Shown here: positions 14,687 through 45,667 of the stretch, piece after piece
How positions within the stretch are numbered: the first letter of the stretch is position 1
How the letters are laid out: each line of letters starts with the position of its first letter
From: an uncultured cyanobacterium
Lineage (GTDB): Bacteria; Cyanobacteriota; Cyanobacteriia; CACIAM-69d
Assembly (NCBI GenBank): GCA_937883785.1
Contig: CALGDE010000124.1
Coordinates: 1-46,179, forward strand
DNA: 46,179 nucleotides
Direction of reading: 5' to 3'
Translations under genes and position numbers: made by a program
Notes under the pieces: generated by a model
What the model was told of the DNA's origin: nothing
The model's database searches: none
Seen by the model: only the letters and a program-made list of their open reading frames with translations

Positions 14687-15649
14687 ATGAATCAATACGG
14701 TGGCGGAGTCGGGCGATGGGTGTTGTGGGTGTTGGTTGGTTTGGGATTTGGGTTATTGGGACACCACGACGGGGCATTTGCTGCCAGTGCCAGCAACGGG
14801 GGAGCCTTAAGTCAGGTGGGATATATAGAAGGAATTGTTCTGGGGCTGACCCAAGGGCTAACGGAGTTTTTGCCTATTAGCAGTACGGCCCATTTAAAGG
14901 TGGTGCCGGTGGCGCTGGGGATGGGAGATCCGGGGGTGGCGCTGACGGCGGTGTTGCAGTTGGGCAGCGTAGCGGCGGTGTTGAGCTATTTCCGCGAGGA
15001 TTTGCTGAATTTGATGAAAGGGACAAAAACGGCAATTACTGAGGGAAACTTTCAGAACCGAGATTTCCGCATTACATTAGGAATTCTTTTAGGGACGATT
15101 CCCATTGTAATCGTCGGATTATGTATCAAGTTTTTTGTAACTGATTTTGATAATTCGCCGTTACGCAGCATTACGTCGATCGCGATCGCTTCCATCGTAA
15201 TGGCAGTGTTGCTGGCTCTGGCGGAGCAGATTGGTAGCCGGGAGCGGGGCTATGGGCAGCTTAATTTGCGCGATGGAATTTTAATTGGTATTGCCCAGGC
15301 GCTAGCGGTATTTCCCGGCGTGTCCCGGTCCGGTTCTACCTTGACGGCGGGGTTATTTTTGGGCATTGAGCGGGCATCGGCGGCGCGGTTTTCGTTTTTA
15401 TTAGGGATTCCGGCGATTACGCTGGCGGGTGTGATTGAATTTCCCACCCTGCTAGAGGGAAGCTACGGTCCTCGGGAGTTTGGGGTGTTGGCGGTGGCGC
15501 TGTTGGCGTCGGTGGTGTCGTCCTATGGGGCGATCGCCTTCCTCTTAAAATTCCTAAAAACCCAAAGCACCTGGGTCTTCGTCGCCTACCGTCTAATCTT
15601 CGGCATCGGTTTACTGCTGGCCTTAAATTGGGGTTGGCTGGCGGGATGA
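14687..15649 (+). CDS. uppP: UppP, undecaprenyl-diphosphate phosphatase
   Basis: The 320 aa membrane protein begins with a signal-like hydrophobic segment. It carries the two UppP active-site blocks: GLTQGLTEFLPISSTAHL (about 58-75) and PGVSRSGSTLTAGLFLG (about 208-224). It recycles the lipid carrier for peptidoglycan and O-antigen by dephosphorylating undecaprenyl pyrophosphate at the outer face of the membrane. ATG at 14687 is the only good start. The last 118 nt (15532-15649) recur twice downstream at 16181 and 17041. Those copies share a tail with each other (VGLLAALNFG) that differs from this gene's own ending. Confidence 0.95.
   Translation: MNQYGGGVGRWVLWVLVGLGFGLLGHHDGAFAASASNGGALSQVGYIEGIVLGLTQGLTEFLPISSTAHLKVVPVALGMGDPGVALTAVLQLGSVAAVLSYFREDLLNLMKGTKTAITEGNFQNRDFRITLGILLGTIPIVIVGLCIKFFVTDFDNSPLRSITSIAIASIVMAVLLALAEQIGSRERGYGQLNLRDGILIGIAQALAVFPGVSRSGSTLTAGLFLGIERASAARFSFLLGIPAITLAGVIEFPTLLEGSYGPREFGVLAVALLASVVSSYGAIAFLLKFLKTQSTWVFVAYRLIFGIGLLLALNWGWLAG
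15532..15649 (+). repeat. uppP 3'-end repeat, copy A (the functional gene end)
   Basis: This is the C-terminal coding part of uppP. Over the first 72 nt it differs from copies B (16181) and C (17041) by two bases each. After that point it diverges from both. Confidence 0.95.
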
Positions 15650-15696
15650 ATTAGGAGAATTTAAAAGCCAACTGGACGTAAACACGTGTCCTTCAA

Positions 15697-16173
15697 TCAC
15701 GCATAGTTGAATTCGTCTTCACCGAAGAAAAAATCTCCCCATAGGGATTCACCAAGATTTGCAGGTCCTACGAAAAAAACCTGATCTTCACGAATAATCC
15801 AGAGCATGCCATGTTCAACTTCCCACTCACAGTTCCACTCCAAGACAGCGATAGGCTGGTTATCACTTTGAGGCTGTGGCACCCATAATCTCGGGGAGCC
15901 TGACAGAGACAGAATATCTCTGGGGTGGTCAGGACTCACCTGTAGCTCTGGTTCGCCTGAATAACAAAAATTGCAATATCGAATTGATGCTTCACATGCG
16001 TCGTCGATCACGAGATCAGGCAAGCTATTCAAATAGTTGACACACCGTGCAGCAAAAGCGAGGTAGTGCCCTTCTTCAAGACAAACAAAAGATATTACCT
16101 GCCTGTGCAGCTCGAAGAAAAACTCCCCTTCTAACCTTCCCCACTTTTCGTGAACATTTTGGATCGCTTCCAC
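15697..16173 (-). CDS. Unknown acidic protein, immunity-like, inside the uppP-tail mosaic
   Basis: This 158 aa protein is acidic and rich in Trp, Phe and Tyr. It includes VLEWNCEWEVEHGMLWII (about 108-125), a pattern I loosely connect with DUF6985-type or polymorphic-toxin immunity proteins. I do not recognise it firmly. The start is GTG at 16173, and an in-frame TAG six bases upstream closes the frame. It begins 8 nt from uppP-tail copy B, so the true N-terminus may have been lost at that junction. It lies between tail copies A and B, on the strand opposite to uppP. Confidence 0.6.
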   Translation of the reverse strand: MEAIQNVHEKWGRLEGEFFFELHRQVISFVCLEEGHYLAFAARCVNYLNSLPDLVIDDACEASIRYCNFCYSGEPELQVSPDHPRDILSLSGSPRLWVPQPQSDNQPIAVLEWNCEWEVEHGMLWIIREDQVFFVGPANLGESLWGDFFFGEDEFNYA

Positions 16174-16180
16174 TGCCTAT

Positions 16181-16307
16181 GGTCGCCTTCCTCTTAAAAT
16201 TCCTCAAAACCCAAAGCACCTGGGTCTTCGTCGCCTACCGTCTAATCTTCGGTGTGGGTCTATTGGCAGCGCTAAACTTTGGCTGACTCACCGAAGGAGT
16301 TGGGTAA
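16181..16307 (+). pseudogene. uppP 3'-end repeat, copy B (fragment)
   Basis: It encodes the uppP C-terminus AFLLKFLKTQSTWVF through YRLIFGVGLLAALNFG, then stops (TGA) where copy C continues with Trp. The tail after the TGA still resembles copy C (ends GGGTAA against GGGTAG). It starts 8 nt after one accessory gene's start codon and ends 13 nt before another's ATG. Confidence 0.92.
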
Positions 16308-16319
16308 TCTTCCTCAACG

Positions 16320-16877
16320 ATGAGCAACTTCAACACTGTCAATGAAGTCACACGCTGGCGAGCATTTACGGTTGGTGATGCAGTCTATGACTTGTCTCAC
16401 CTAGATGCTCACTGGGCTGAGTATCAGGACACCCGAGACCCAGTCAAGGTGACAACATACAGATTCATCGTCACTTACGGATTGCACTGTTTTACCAAGG
16501 CGCTTCCAGGAATGTCCGACGACGACGAGCAAAGACTGATGTACATCGCCCCTCGTGAGTCTCGACCCTTTAATTTTGAGCGATACGAGCTTTCCAAGCA
16601 GTTGCCTGCCATTATTCGCAGCTTAGGCAGTCAGGAAACTTTGGTAGCTCACGCTGGCTATGGCAAGTATGCGATCGTCAAAGTTGTAACTGCTGATGGG
16701 CGAGAGGTGGACTATCTTGTCCCTTTTATGGTCTTCAAAGAACGCAAGAAACTCAGGCTACACGTTCAAAGTGCATATCCTTTAGATCAGCAGCCAGGAA
16801 GGGTCCAAAAGGTCAATTTTTTCTTAATTGCCCGTCGGTTACAGCGTAATGAACAACTGCCACGCCCCTTCAAATAG
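16320..16877 (+). CDS. Unknown soluble protein, accessory family
   Basis: The 185 aa protein contains VYDLSHLDAHW near the N-terminus, LHCFTKALPG, FERYELSKQLPAIIRSL and near the end VQSAYPLDQQ followed by KVNFFLIARRL. I recall a widespread bacterial family of unknown function with this layout (YDLSHL, FERYxLSxxLPxII, QSAY, IA) but cannot name it. There is no signal peptide or membrane segment. It begins 13 nt after uppP-tail copy B and ends just before a structured non-coding stretch. No partner gene is adjacent on the same strand. Confidence 0.75.
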   Translation: MSNFNTVNEVTRWRAFTVGDAVYDLSHLDAHWAEYQDTRDPVKVTTYRFIVTYGLHCFTKALPGMSDDDEQRLMYIAPRESRPFNFERYELSKQLPAIIRSLGSQETLVAHAGYGKYAIVKVVTADGREVDYLVPFMVFKERKKLRLHVQSAYPLDQQPGRVQKVNFFLIARRLQRNEQLPRPFK

Positions 16878-16891
16878 GCTTCCAATAACAA

Positions 16892-17009
16892 GGGCTCCCT
16901 AAAAGGAGCCCCCGCCAAATTTTGAATTTGGTATTCAGAACGTCTTTACCGGAATTCCTCGACCCTTTCGGGTAACGGGATGTCATGCGAGTGCATGTCT
17001 GCTGCATCC
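16892..17009 (-). ncRNA. Candidate structured RNA between uppP-tail copies
   Basis: Read on the minus strand, four stems occur in 118 nt. GGATG/CATCC (17005-17009 with 16978-16982) encloses CATGC/GCATG (16993-16997 with 16984-16988). An ACCC-GAAA-GGGT hairpin with a GNRA loop lies at 16962-16973. CCAAATT/AATTTGG (16915-16931, 3-nt loop) follows. Last comes GGGCTCC/GGAGCCC (16892-16911), which is terminator-like although the U-tract is poor. The GNRA loop appears only on the minus strand, which favours that orientation. It could be an orphan HEARO/omega-type RNA, another mobile RNA or a repeat hairpin. Identity is unproven. Confidence 0.5.
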
Positions 17010-17040
17010 TACTTGCATTGAGCATAGCATAAAGCCTCTG

Positions 17041-17167
17041 GATCGCCTTTCTCTTAAAATTCCTAAAAACCCAAAGCACCTGGGTCTTCGTCGCCTACCG
17101 CCTAATCTTCGGCGTCGGTTTATTGGCAGCGCTAAACTTTGGTTGGCTGCATGAGGGAGTTGGGTAG
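17041..17167 (+). pseudogene. uppP 3'-end repeat, copy C (fragment with intact tail)
   Basis: It encodes the same C-terminal stretch of UppP and continues open to NFGWLHEGVG and a TAG stop. It has no start and no upstream part of the gene. It may be the original uppP end, displaced when accessory DNA entered, because copies B and C share the tail that the functional gene lacks. Confidence 0.92.
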
Positions 17168-17382
17168 ATTAGACAATGTCCATATTGCTACTAAGGGCAT
17201 TCATGGTAAACCTCATAATCCCCAATGCCAGCAACGCCCAACTGGTAGCAATGCAATATGATGGTTGCTTAATTTCGAGAAGCCTGGGTCTTGTATGGAC
17301 TAAAGCTTAGCCTGCATTATTCTTCGTCACTAAAAATATATTTTTAAGTTGGATAACTTGAAGCCGTCACGCACAAATCCCA

Positions 17383-17832
17383 ATGTTCGACTATGTAGTT
17401 TTAATAGCTCTGTTTGCATTGTTGTTTGTATTAAAGCTTTCGTTTCTATTGGTTAGATACGTACGCTTATGGGGAAAAGGGCGTGAGGAGAGGCTACGAC
17501 TTTACGACGATCCAGACTTGATGGAACAAGAGGTTGAGCGTCTAGTTGCTCTGGGAAGTTCCATTGGGCGGGCAAAAGGGATCATGGAAGCCAACGGCTT
17601 TGAGTGTCGTTACGCTGAAGATAGTAGCTTTATTAGAGGTAGAGACGGCACCATAGCGCCCTTAGGAAAGCCAGGTGAATCCACAAGATATGAAGGGAAA
17701 GACTTCCTCTATTGCGACTTCTCCGGATTTGCGATGAAGCAGTGGCTCCCCATCCGATGGCAAGTCGCGATCGCCCATGAAGAAAGCAAAGTGACAATCA
17801 TTGCTGTGTCTGCACACGTTATCTATTTGTAA
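17383..17832 (+). CDS. Single-pass membrane protein of unknown function
   Basis: This 149 aa protein has one N-terminal hydrophobic segment (about residues 3-27, ending LLVRYVRLW), then a basic-acidic linker. The compact C-terminal domain contains SSIGRAKGIMEANGFEC and WQVAIAHEESKVTIIAVSA. The C-terminal pattern recalls small BamE/SmpA-like folds, but that is a guess. One HIP1 site lies inside. It is preceded by 215 nt without a gene after tail copy C and converges on the photolyase gene. Confidence 0.7.
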   Translation: MFDYVVLIALFALLFVLKLSFLLVRYVRLWGKGREERLRLYDDPDLMEQEVERLVALGSSIGRAKGIMEANGFECRYAEDSSFIRGRDGTIAPLGKPGESTRYEGKDFLYCDFSGFAMKQWLPIRWQVAIAHEESKVTIIAVSAHVIYL

Positions 17833-39327: not shown

Positions 39328-39584
39328 AGGTTCGGCAGAAATTAGGACCGGACAAAGACGTGCCGATCCTAACAAGGGCGGTTCTCTAGACGTAGCAACT
39401 ACGCAGAATCGTTACTGTCTTTGGGGATCATGCCCATCGGAATCCAAGTTCAAAATTGCCGTCAGTGTACCCTCGCAAGCTAGCTTCCGTTCTAGGAAAA
39501 CCGGTTGCAGAAGCTCGCCCGTTCCTAGGGCTTATTTGGCGATCGCCCCAGCGATAAAAATACCCTTGACTCTATGACCAGTCA
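39328..39584. other. Intergenic region upstream of the ATP-grasp gene
   Basis: No gene is seen in this 257-nt stretch. It contains one HIP1-like site (GCGATCGCC at about 39539). The ROK gene ends at its right side. Confidence 0.3.
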
Positions 39585-40496
39585 CTATTTACCTTCAAGA
39601 TTTCTAAGCAAAAGATATGCCGCGCCCAACAGACCAGAATCATTGCCAGCGCTGGCCATCTTAAGGATCAGATTTTTCTTAAAGCTAGGCATTAGCTTCT
39701 GATGTAGATTCTCCTCAATTCTGTGTAAAAGATAATCTCCCTGGGCTGACACTCCGCCACCAATAATTATCAGCTTAGGATTGAAAGAAACAACAATACT
39801 TTTTAGTCCATCAGCTATAAATCCTATCCATTCTTCCACTAATTCTTTATATAGAACATCGCCATTTCTTTCGCGTTGGAAAATCGTTTCGCCATCGATA
39901 TTATCCAGTTTTGCTAATACTTTTGCCCTAGAAATGAGAGCATCGGTTGATGCATGAGCTTCGTAGCATCCGTAGTCACCGCATCTACACTGTCGGCCAT
40001 TTTGAACAATTTTTATATGCCCAAACTCACCGGCTCCATAGTTATCTCCCCGGTAAAGCTCACCCTGATTAAATATCCCTCCACCAATGCCTGTGCCGAG
40101 GGCAATACAGATAAAAGAGTCTTCCCCAATAGCACTTCCCTGCCAGTGTTCAGCTATTGCGATGCAGTTCACGTCGTTTTCAACAACAACTGGTAAATTG
40201 AGTTTCCCTTCAAAATACCCCCTGATATTAGTCCCTATCCAGTTTGGAATTAAATCGGTGGCATAACTAATAATTCCTTGATAAAAATCCACTTGCCCTG
40301 TGGCGCTGATACCAATCCCAACTAATGGATATGCCTTAGCCATTGTGGTAATGACTTCTGCAATCCTCATAAGGATATCTGAGGCACCTCTTTTAGGATG
40401 AGTCTGTATACTTCCTTGAGAAGAAATACTGCCCTCGTCATCAACCACCCCATACTTAATCTTCGTTCCGCCGATATCTATTGCAGCAATGAACAT
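39585..40496 (-). CDS. ROK-family sugar kinase (glucokinase-like)
   Basis: The 303 aa protein begins MFIAAIDIGGTKIKYGVV (phosphate-1 motif) and has VVENDVNCIAIAEHW, ALGTGIGGGIFNQGEL, EFGHIKIVQNGRQCRCGDYG and CYEAHAS (ROK zinc site CxCGxxGC). It probably phosphorylates glucose or another hexose with ATP. ATG at 40496 follows a strong AGAGAGGAAG ribosome site, unlike nearby genes. It is AT-richer than its neighbours and has no HIP1 site, which suggests transfer, perhaps from Firmicutes. An upstream in-frame ATG at 40601 is not needed. Confidence 0.92.
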   Translation of the reverse strand: MFIAAIDIGGTKIKYGVVDDEGSISSQGSIQTHPKRGASDILMRIAEVITTMAKAYPLVGIGISATGQVDFYQGIISYATDLIPNWIGTNIRGYFEGKLNLPVVVENDVNCIAIAEHWQGSAIGEDSFICIALGTGIGGGIFNQGELYRGDNYGAGEFGHIKIVQNGRQCRCGDYGCYEAHASTDALISRAKVLAKLDNIDGETIFQRERNGDVLYKELVEEWIGFIADGLKSIVVSFNPKLIIIGGGVSAQGDYLLHRIEENLHQKLMPSFKKNLILKMASAGNDSGLLGAAYLLLRNLEGK

Positions 40497-40618
40497 CTTC
40501 CTCTCTTCTACTCTCCTTACGAAGGTTTGAGGGTGAATAACACTGCACAGAATTGGATAAAGTGCTTCAGCTCTATGCAGTATCCTACGCAATAATTTCA
40601 ACGAATAAGATAACCCTG

Positions 40619-42043
40619 CTAGGTATCCTGAGGTAGCGTGCTCATGCGATTTAAATCTAAAATTTCTGTTAGTTTATCCTCTGGAATTAGCTCCCGCTCC
40701 AGCACAATTTGCCGCAATGATTTGCCCGTTTCTAAGGATTCTTTGGCGATCGCCGCCGCCGTCAAATAGCCCCCGGGCAAATGGGTATTCAGTGCCGTCA
40801 CCAACGCCAAACTCCCCTCCGCGTAGGCTTCACACCGCTCCGGCACAGCTTCAATTCCCGCGATACAGCGATCGCCTAAGGCACCGATGGTATTACCCAA
40901 AATCTCAATGCTGTGGATCAGATCAAAGGCAATCAGGGGCATCATCACGTTCAGCTCCAACTGACCTGCCTGGGCGCACAGGGCGATCGCCTGGTCGTGC
41001 CCCATTACCTGGAAACACACCATCGACGTCATCTCCGCCATCACCGGATTGTATTTTCCCGGCATAATCGACGAGCCGGGCTGTACCGGCGGCAACTTAA
41101 TTTCCTTAAAACCGGTCTTCGGACCCGAATCCATCAGGCGCAAATCGTGGGAAATTTTCGCCAAATCCTGCGCCAAGTTCCGCAAACAACCGGACATATT
41201 TACGAAGGGGGACATACTTTGCATCGCCGCCATCAGATGGGGAGCGGGAGCCACATCCACCCCAATCAATTCCGATAGCAACTCCGCCGATCGCCCGCGA
41301 TATTTCGGGTGGGTATTCAACCCCGTCCCGGCAGCACTACCGCCCAACCCAAGCTGCGTAAGATCCGCCGAAGCCATCTTCAGCCGCCGCAAATGATCCG
41401 CCAGAATCACGGACCATGCCCGGAAACCTTCCCCCAAACGCACCGGCACCGCATCCTGTAAATGGGTGCGCCCAGACTTCACCACGTCTTTGAACTCGTC
41501 CGCCTTTGCCGCCACGTGATGAATCATGGACTCCAGCGCCGGATAAAGGGTTCGCTTCAGGGCTAACAAACTGCCAATGCGAATCGCCGTGGGAATCACA
41601 TCATTGGTGGACTGTCCATAATTCACGTGGTCATTGGGGCTCAGCCGCCCATAATTTCCCTTCGCATCCCCCAATAGCTCCAAGCCCCGATTCGCCAACA
41701 CCTCATTCACATTCATATGGTGGGACGTGCCAGCCCCGGCTTGGTACACATCCACCACAAACTGATCCCGTAGCTTGCCGTCCAGCACCTCATCGGCTGC
41801 CTGCACAATCACCTTCGACAGCTCCTCGGGAATGCAGCCCAGCTCCCCATTGGCGATCGCCGTCGCCTTCTTAATCAACACACAGGCTTCCACATAGGTG
41901 GGCAAGGGACGCAGCCCGCTAATGGGAAAATTCTCCATTGCCCGCAGGGTTTGGATACCGTAATAGGCAGAATCGGGCAGGGACTTTTCTCCCATCGAAT
42001 CCTTCTCAATGCGAAATCCCGATTGATTGGCAGCTTGGGTCAT
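40619..42043 (-). CDS. aspA: Aspartate ammonia-lyase / class II fumarate lyase
   Basis: The 474 aa protein has the fumarase/aspartase superfamily signatures: VYQAGAGTSHHMNVNEVLAN, NDHVNYGQSTNDVIPTAI, SGRTHLQDAVPV and GSSIMPGKYNPVMAE. The QAGAGTS and LELLGDAKGNYGRLSPNDHV blocks favour aspartase. GSSIMPGK, where aspartase usually has GSSIMPAK, leaves fumarase possible. It is either aspartate to fumarate plus ammonia, or fumarate to malate in the TCA cycle. ATG at 42043. It is divergent from xisH. Confidence 0.85.
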   Translation of the reverse strand: MTQAANQSGFRIEKDSMGEKSLPDSAYYGIQTLRAMENFPISGLRPLPTYVEACVLIKKATAIANGELGCIPEELSKVIVQAADEVLDGKLRDQFVVDVYQAGAGTSHHMNVNEVLANRGLELLGDAKGNYGRLSPNDHVNYGQSTNDVIPTAIRIGSLLALKRTLYPALESMIHHVAAKADEFKDVVKSGRTHLQDAVPVRLGEGFRAWSVILADHLRRLKMASADLTQLGLGGSAAGTGLNTHPKYRGRSAELLSELIGVDVAPAPHLMAAMQSMSPFVNMSGCLRNLAQDLAKISHDLRLMDSGPKTGFKEIKLPPVQPGSSIMPGKYNPVMAEMTSMVCFQVMGHDQAIALCAQAGQLELNVMMPLIAFDLIHSIEILGNTIGALGDRCIAGIEAVPERCEAYAEGSLALVTALNTHLPGGYLTAAAIAKESLETGKSLRQIVLERELIPEDKLTEILDLNRMSTLPQDT

Positions 42044-44387: not shown

Positions 44388-45667
44388 CGGAGCGGCTGGT
44401 TGCGGATTTTTTGGATTGGGATGAGGAGGAGTTGCCGCCGGAGTCGAAGGATGAGGTTTTGGGGCGGTTGTTTCGAGGCATTGCCAACACTGAGGGGGCG
44501 GGCTGGTTTTTTGTGCAGTGTTCTCGCCAGCAGGGATCCGAGGTAGTGGAACAGCTCAAGGGGCGTTTTGGGCGGGTTGAGGTGTTGGAATTGGAGCGGG
44601 GGGCGGAGTCGTTTTATCCCGAGGCGATGGGTTTATTTGAGACCAATCCTTTTGATGTGTTGGTGGTGCAGGGGGTTGATGAGGCGCTGTTGGGCTATGA
44701 GGATACGAAGCGGGCGTTGGGGTGGGACAGTGCGGATTTACATAATTATGATTCGCGGGATGTGCCGCCGTTATTAAGCCATTTCAATCAGGTGCGGGAG
44801 TGTTTGCGGGATACGGTGCCGCGTCCTGTTGTGTTTGTGGTGTCGGCGTTTGTGGTGAAGTATTTGTTGTTGCGGGCTCCTGATTTTTACGATTGGCGAG
44901 CCGGAACGTTGACGTTGCCTTTGGATGAGGGCGATCGCTCCCAAATTATGGGTTGGACTAAATCCGCAGAATACGGCGATTATTGCAATTTATCGGAGAG
45001 AGAACGACAGCAAAAGATTGCTGATTTACATCAATTGATTGAGACAGATAGTTTAGAGAAAGCAGAGCGATCCAGATTATTAGTGGAAGAAGGACTGCTC
45101 TTTGAAAGTGGAAATACTTACGAGCAAGCTATCTTTTGCTACGACAAAGCCCTAGAAATTGAACCGGATAAAGATACAGCTTGGTTCGGCAAAGGCTTCT
45201 CACTTGTTGAAATAGGTCGCTATGAGGAAGCGATCGCCAGCTATGACAAAGCCGTAGAAATCAAACCCGATCAAGATCAAGCCTGGTACAACCGTGGGAA
45301 TGCTCTGCATAAATTAGAGCGATATGAGGAAGCGATCGCCAGCTATGACAAAGCCCTAGAAATCAAACCCGACAATAGTTGGACCCGTCATCAAATTGGC
45401 TGGGCTTACCTAATTGCTAAGCAGTACGAAAAGTCCATCGAAACATTCCAGCAATGTCTTGACTTGAATGGTGACGATCCAGAAGGGCATTACGGCTTAG
45501 CTTGCGTCTACAGTCAGAAAAACCAGATTGAGCCTGCCCTTGAATGGCTCGCCAAGGTTTTCAAACTCGATCCAGATAACTACCGCGAGCGTACCGCCAA
45601 AGACTCAGACTTTGACCCTATTCGCAGCGACCCACGCTTCCAAGACCTAATTCAACCCAACGAATAA
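44384..45667 (+). CDS. Pseudo-STAND/TPR protein
   Basis: The 427 aa protein has an N-terminal region (1-180) laid out like a STAND NTPase but with VQCSRQQGSEV (44-54) where a P-loop should be, so it is probably unable to bind ATP normally. LLLRAPDFYDWRAGTLTL (161-178) matches a motif seen in bacterial STAND proteins. From about 235 there are four to five TPRs (LVEEGLLFESGNTYEQAIF, GRYEEAIASYDKAVEIKPD and copies). Two TPR units are nearly identical in DNA, each holding a HIP1 site, which points to recent duplication. It overlaps the ATPase gene by 4 nt. Confidence 0.88.
   Translation: MTERLVADFLDWDEEELPPESKDEVLGRLFRGIANTEGAGWFFVQCSRQQGSEVVEQLKGRFGRVEVLELERGAESFYPEAMGLFETNPFDVLVVQGVDEALLGYEDTKRALGWDSADLHNYDSRDVPPLLSHFNQVRECLRDTVPRPVVFVVSAFVVKYLLLRAPDFYDWRAGTLTLPLDEGDRSQIMGWTKSAEYGDYCNLSERERQQKIADLHQLIETDSLEKAERSRLLVEEGLLFESGNTYEQAIFCYDKALEIEPDKDTAWFGKGFSLVEIGRYEEAIASYDKAVEIKPDQDQAWYNRGNALHKLERYEEAIASYDKALEIKPDNSWTRHQIGWAYLIAKQYEKSIETFQQCLDLNGDDPEGHYGLACVYSQKNQIEPALEWLAKVFKLDPDNYRERTAKDSDFDPIRSDPRFQDLIQPNE

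Follow-up and report, generated by a model that had tools for sequence, protein, structure and literature searches.

In this genome of an uncultured cyanobacterium, uppP is probably one of several sites at which horizontally acquired DNA was inserted into the palindromic octamer HIP1 near the 3' end of a gene. The window, i.e., the whole 46,179-nt stretch of DNA that was analysed, holds three copies of the uppP 3' end with accessory genes between them. Observed directly are the anatomy of these repeats, the HIP1 octamer at their edge, the recurrence of the arrangement at other genes, cargo that is poor in HIP1, cassettes in which no recombinase is annotated, and empty sites at two of the genes, gcvP and fumC, in a genome of the same genus (G001).

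Three 3' ends of uppP and the genes between them

The features of the uppP locus, in window coordinates, are as follows.
14687..15649, plus strand: uppP (BacA), intact host gene (PF02673, E 6.5e-73)
15530..15537, no strand: HIP1 octamer GCGATCGC within uppP, at which the repeated 3' end has its left edge (from sequence; edge offsets +4 and +2)
15532..15649, plus strand: copy A, current functional uppP 3' end, its tail probably donor-derived (sequence comparison)
15697..16173, minus strand: cargo 1, DUF6985 protein of 158 aa between A and B (PF22481, E 3.5e-20)
16183..16306, plus strand: copy B, uppP 3' end with a premature TGA; left half of HIP1 missing
16320..16877, plus strand: cargo 2, YjaZ-like protein of 185 aa between B and C (NF007263, E 2e-44, under the curated cut-off)
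16890..17039, minus strand: cargo 2, sroH-family small RNA, convergent with yjaZ (RF00372, 51.2 bits, E 1.9e-10, under the gathering score of 80)
17041..17166, plus strand: copy C, putative original uppP 3' end (by analogy with the empty sites at gcvP and fumC)
17383..17832, plus strand: 149-aa ORF between copy C and phr, a possible extra accessory gene, for which no flanking repeat copy was found

A threefold occurrence of the terminal ~118 nt of uppP, as stated in the initial annotation, was confirmed; a genome-wide BLAST search with the uppP end matched copies A, B, and C only, at a significance far above chance (E = 5e-35 and 5e-29). Copy A has two mismatches to B and two to C within its first 72 nt, as had been described, and the tail of A does depart from that of the other copies, with 19 (A-B) and 16 (A-C) differences in the last 45 nt; B and C differ from each other at 4 positions in the first 72 nt and at 9 in the following 48. 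The repeat itself stood, and its left edge was corrected: the edge common to B and C corresponds to the inside, or the second half, of the HIP1 octamer at 15530-15537. Copy B carries an in-frame TGA upstream of the natural end, and the seven codons that differ between B and C before this stop are all synonymous (25% expected at random; P 5e-5), which argues that the copies are not decayed local duplicates; the differences of A from B and C in the core are synonymous as well. Most likely, to judge by these substitutions, each tail evolved for a while as a working end of uppP. A DNA-level constraint on synonymous sites of the uppP 3' end was considered and set aside, as it is unexceptional across 61 cyanobacterial genes.

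Outside this genome, no second uppP tail was seen at ~56 further cyanobacterial uppP loci within the DNA examined there, and candidate tail copies from 390 cyanobacterial genomes were rejected after a re-check in 15 of these genomes, where the second matches proved to be mostly full-length paralogues. Searches of viral contigs with the uppP, YjaZ, and DUF6985 proteins, and of plasmids with DNA of the uppP locus, gave no match. As a separate observation, a 77-nt stretch 3' of copy C (17243-17319) occurs twice in G001, on contigs C544 and C342, at 76-81% identity.

The acidic gene first noticed between A and B encodes the DUF6985 protein, which was not found in the 389 other cyanobacterial genomes searched, while the gene and the structured stretch noticed between B and C correspond to the YjaZ-like gene and the minus-strand sroH-family RNA, the family being matched over its full RNA length by the stretch 3' of yjaZ. 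The YjaZ-like protein was found in 11 of 390 cyanobacterial genomes and in 587 plasmid records. A yjaZ gene convergent with an adjacent sroH RNA is present not only in the window, but also in E. coli K-12, where the same pair lies between rpoC and thiH, on enterobacterial plasmids, where sroH scores above the gathering score, and in other cyanobacteria; the two form a convergent pair that is conserved among E. coli, small plasmids, and cyanobacteria (loci L142-L148, L152, and L154-L156). The pair behaves as a mobile protein-RNA module, possibly of the toxin-antitoxin or defence type; no paper testing its function was found in the open-access literature, and searches of PADLOC, PDB, and PHROGs with the cargo yielded nothing significant. 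Gene-tail repeats as general flanks of yjaZ-sroH were considered and rejected, as only generic intergenic repeats were found, at L144 and L145; in these two related cyanobacteria, arrays of ~78-nt intergenic repeats lie on both sides of the pair (L144 4396-4743 and 5547-5921; L145 3754-4143 and 4993-5302).

Gene-tail copies across the genome and their edges at HIP1

We screened 1.87 Mb (39% of the genome; the first 20 kb of most of contigs C1-C123) for 3' ends of genes of which a second copy lies further downstream, not covered by an ORF on the same strand, under a scheme that was settled during the work. Copies downstream were found for 20 3' ends as compared to 2-7 for 5' ends or gene middles, paralogues being still included in these counts. 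Tandem paralogues and low-complexity arrays were then excluded by eye (L139, L162, L182, L202 minus strand, L211, and L220), and ten cases, with uppP counted twice, were left after curation in the 1.87 Mb of this one genome. The argH, fumC, and glmS genes as well as the host TPR, kinase, and glycosyltransferase genes were named from their protein sequence, without a Pfam call. The tail copies enclose an AIPR gene at gcvP, a TrkH gene at argH, a ROK kinase gene at the fumC-type gene, an ABC-transporter operon at a TPR gene, a Uma2 gene at an ORF on a contig edge, and, between decayed copies, a nucleoside-deoxyribosyltransferase-like gene at glmS; a glycosyltransferase-like gene also has a decayed tail copy. 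At a histidine-kinase-like gene, two tails of 139 nt, 100% identical, enclose an AAA ATPase, an eCIS-core protein, and a Pvc16-like protein as a single 5.6-kb insert (eCIS_core and Pvc16_N; L249 8700-16100, contig G000:C96); since the two tails are fully identical, this insertion is probably recent.

The fumC-type site lies in the window itself, where the whole arrangement of gene, kinase, and tail copy spans 39412-42043.
40619..42043, minus strand: fumC/aspA-type gene, second cassette site (name read from sequence, not family-searched)
40746..40753, no strand: HIP1 in the 3' part of the fumC-type gene, left edge of the repeated end
39585..40601, minus strand: cargo, ROK-family kinase of 338 aa (PF00480, E 2.7e-66)
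39412..39547, minus strand: decayed copy of the fumC-type 3' end, with HIP1 at its start (39539-39546)
Further along the window, 102-nt spaced repeats at 45108-45372 encode a TPR-like array and represent ordinary protein repeats.

Duplication of a gene tail around foreign-looking cargo is not unique to uppP, and the cargo is varied, ranging from probable defence genes to transporters. Several spacers are low in GC (AIPR 38% and ROK 42%, as compared to 51.6% for the genome). No annotated recombinase was found in any cassette, either by Pfam searches of the cargo genes or in the ORF lists, which bears out the initial statement that the inserts lack an integrase. A 0.58-Mb sample of other cyanobacteria, too small to judge how general the pattern is, gave one candidate, which lacks HIP1.

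Many cyanobacterial genomes have a marked excess of HIP1, and in the present one it occurs once per 584 nt, 100-fold above the expectation from composition. The left edge of each copy was set by ungapped extension, with its offset counted from the start of GCGATCGC in the intact gene. Seven of the ten tail copies start between -1 and +6 nt from a HIP1 octamer (offsets +4, +2, +4, -1, -1, +6, and -1), so that their junctions lie within or at GCGATCGC. Within a range of -2 to +5, 6 of 10 edges qualify, compared to a null of 1.7% in ORF 3' ends (P 4.6e-9), and within a range of -4 to +8, which alone includes the TPR edge (+6), 7 of 10 do, compared to 2.7% (P 1.3e-9). Identity starts exactly at the second half of HIP1, TCGC, in uppP copy B and at gcvP, and the full GGCGATCGCC is common to both copies at argH, fumC, and the histidine-kinase gene; for Uma2, the edge is GCGATCAA, with only six HIP1 bases, and the glmS and glycosyltransferase copies do not start at HIP1. 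Direct repeats in general are hardly enriched for HIP1 at their edges (11 left and 10 right edges of 103, as compared to 7.8% at random), which rules out all direct repeats as the relevant class and makes the link to HIP1 specific to gene-tail copies. In addition, the spacers of the seven HIP1-edge cases hold only 2 HIP1 in 17.4 kb, where ~30 were expected (P 6e-11), the two being internal to the TPR cargo; such HIP1-poor and partly AT-rich spacers fit foreign DNA, and they also fit segments that run from one HIP1 to the next.

HIP1 may be no more than a convenient microhomology, so that transforming DNA, anchored in a conserved gene, would end at the most frequent match of 8-10 nt by homology-facilitated illegitimate recombination, without dedicated machinery. 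We regard this account, a narrower version of the preferred explanation rather than an exclusive alternative to it, as falling only slightly short of an even prospect. It agrees with the abundance of HIP1 given above and with the three junctions that share the full GGCGATCGCC; HIP1 is also said to stimulate illegitimate recombination at a low frequency, in E. coli too, according to a report cited in a review (PMC4390886). Against it, uppP copy B and gcvP share only the right half of HIP1 and thus join inside the octamer, although later mutation of the left half would explain half-octamer junctions as well.

Empty sites in a congener and the probable course of insertion

The congener G001 was compared through alignment coordinates only. 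In this genome, the gcvP stop is ~104 nt from the LysR flank, where the present genome carries a 2.3-kb cassette, and the copied gcvP end and its flank align to G001 as a single block that begins exactly at the HIP1 edge (query base 61). The match of the fumC copy lies at G001's own fumC end and runs ~75 nt past the stop into the native flank, with ~0.9 kb of other DNA slightly downstream. Inserts flanked by long direct target repeats, with an empty site in a relative, are thus present at gcvP and fumC; by these alignments the second copy is the native end at both genes, and the tail that each gene uses at present would therefore be the newcomer. The proposal that copy C is the original end of uppP gains support from these two empty sites rather than from uppP itself, where the sequence of G001, the sole same-genus genome, breaks between codon 212, at which its contig ends, and phr. 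In the other four genomes of the family, the gene order 3' of uppP is not shared. The suspected turnover of cargo is upheld indirectly: the glmS duplication is also present in G001, with a spacer of ~500 nt compared to 1428 nt here, and the intervening DNA at fumC differs. In genome G002 (L095 8100-11030), ~3 kb with desaturase-like and methyltransferase-like genes lie between uppP and a PHP-type gene, with no uppP tail copy in this stretch, and in genomes G003 and G004 the PHP-type gene directly follows uppP.

The same comparison bears on local tandem duplication, i.e., unequal crossing-over between HIP1 sites with subsequent loss of the second cargo copy and no horizontal transfer. Such an event likewise predicts HIP1 at one edge of the repeat, but we consider it very improbable, given that G001 joins the gene end directly to the native flank at gcvP and fumC, that the copies differ synonymously, like ends selected separately, and that the cargo is HIP1-poor, shifted in GC, and, where tested, patchily distributed.

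Under the preferred explanation of horizontal insertion at HIP1, the incoming segment would consist of the 3' end of the corresponding donor gene, followed by the cargo, and it may have been acquired by natural uptake of DNA from relatives. The left junction would form by homologous recombination with the recipient gene, within the gene or at HIP1, and the right junction by joining to the recipient's copy at HIP1. The host gene would then run intact into the donor tail, with the cargo next, and the recipient's old tail would be left as a remnant beginning at HIP1. The three tails of uppP would then be due to two rounds of insertion: in the first, yjaZ-sroH may have entered and provided tail B, C being the original, and in the second, the DUF6985 gene may have entered and provided tail A, leaving B as a remnant in which a stop is now present. 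The host gene would be preserved because only insertions that bring a working tail survive. The earlier view that insertion occurred at a protein-gene 3' end and restored the reading frame each time is in line with these findings. An enzyme that cuts or recombines at HIP1 would account for half-octamer junctions, and plain microhomology for full-octamer ones. A bolder extension is that cyanobacteria in general capture cassettes at HIP1, where a cut or a recombinase directed to the octamer would exchange segments of relatives' DNA that are bounded by HIP1; this seems rather unlikely to us.

These observations indicate that foreign genes have repeatedly been placed in gene tails without breaking the genes, and they provide a testable link between HIP1 and gene capture. 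If the bolder extension is true, any conserved gene with HIP1 near its end would be a safe landing site and the palindrome would gain a function. If cassettes regularly enter at HIP1 without harm, HIP1 would be an acquisition route for defence and transport genes, and a direct assay of its function would become available. Left-over tails could also serve to date and trace single-gene transfers, and a marker-free insertion tool might possibly be derived.

Relation to known insertion systems

The biological significance of HIP1 was called little known in a 2015 review, which also covers plasmid recombination at HIP1 in Synechococcus PCC 7002 (Akiyama et al. 1998) and an SDR5 repeat module inserted inside HIP1 (PMC4390886); plasmid fusion and inversion at HIP1 are described elsewhere (PMC9239245), and the HIP1 passages of both papers name no recombinase or nuclease acting on it. 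The present sites are alike in that DNA is joined at HIP1 octamers, with breakpoints inside the palindrome; however, the known cases are plasmid fusions, an inversion, and a repeat module, whereas gene cassettes at gene 3' ends, with probable replacement of the tail, are seen here. A second parallel is insertion with long target duplication, as reported for restriction-modification genes of Helicobacter pylori (Nobusato et al. 2000, as cited in PMC4978471). Both involve small gene units, often of defence, long direct target repeats, and no recombinase of their own. By contrast, the repeat here is a gene 3' end, the frame is kept, the repeat mostly begins at a fixed palindrome, and the uppP and gcvP copies have diverged as functional ends. 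This synonymous divergence suggests that one repeat copy arrived with the donor DNA; the histidine-kinase-gene copies, unlike those of uppP, are identical. The present pattern joins HIP1 recombination with long target duplication and adds restoration of the gene tail and varied cargo. Our search of the open-access literature found no description of cassette capture at gene 3' ends via HIP1.

Integron cassettes form tandem arrays of single genes, with a repeated site (attC) after each. The tandem single-gene cargo units here, with a repeated site after each, are similar, but the repeat is a coding gene tail rather than attC, no integrase is seen in the cassettes, and cargo occurs in both orientations.

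Integrative elements at protein-gene 3' ends, such as e14 at icd, bring a divergent replacement 3' end and leave the old end as a remnant. The present sites also supply a replacement 3' end and leave the old one behind, with direct repeats that run from the crossover to the gene end and a restored frame. Unlike e14-type elements, they have no integrase by the attachment site, carry one to few genes as cargo, affect many different target genes in this one genome, and have HIP1 in common. The cassettes could nevertheless be remnants of such elements, with integrases that were lost or act in trans; target restoration has the same anatomy at tRNA genes or icd, and four tyrosine-recombinase genes are present elsewhere in the genome. 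We consider this quite unlikely, as a separate integrase would be required for each of several unrelated genes, and as the space is taken up by cargo and holds no remnants of an integrase. The likeness to integrase attachment sites that had been proposed initially was not sustained either, since the target genes share no core except HIP1, at most left edges, and the cassettes hold no recombinase. Only one recombinase gene adjoins a gene end, and no link between it and the cassette sites is known; this tyrosine recombinase gene lies ~120 nt 3' of the dnaN stop, at a contig end (L137 41-1096, contig G000:C15), and its product resembles Tn554 transposase A.
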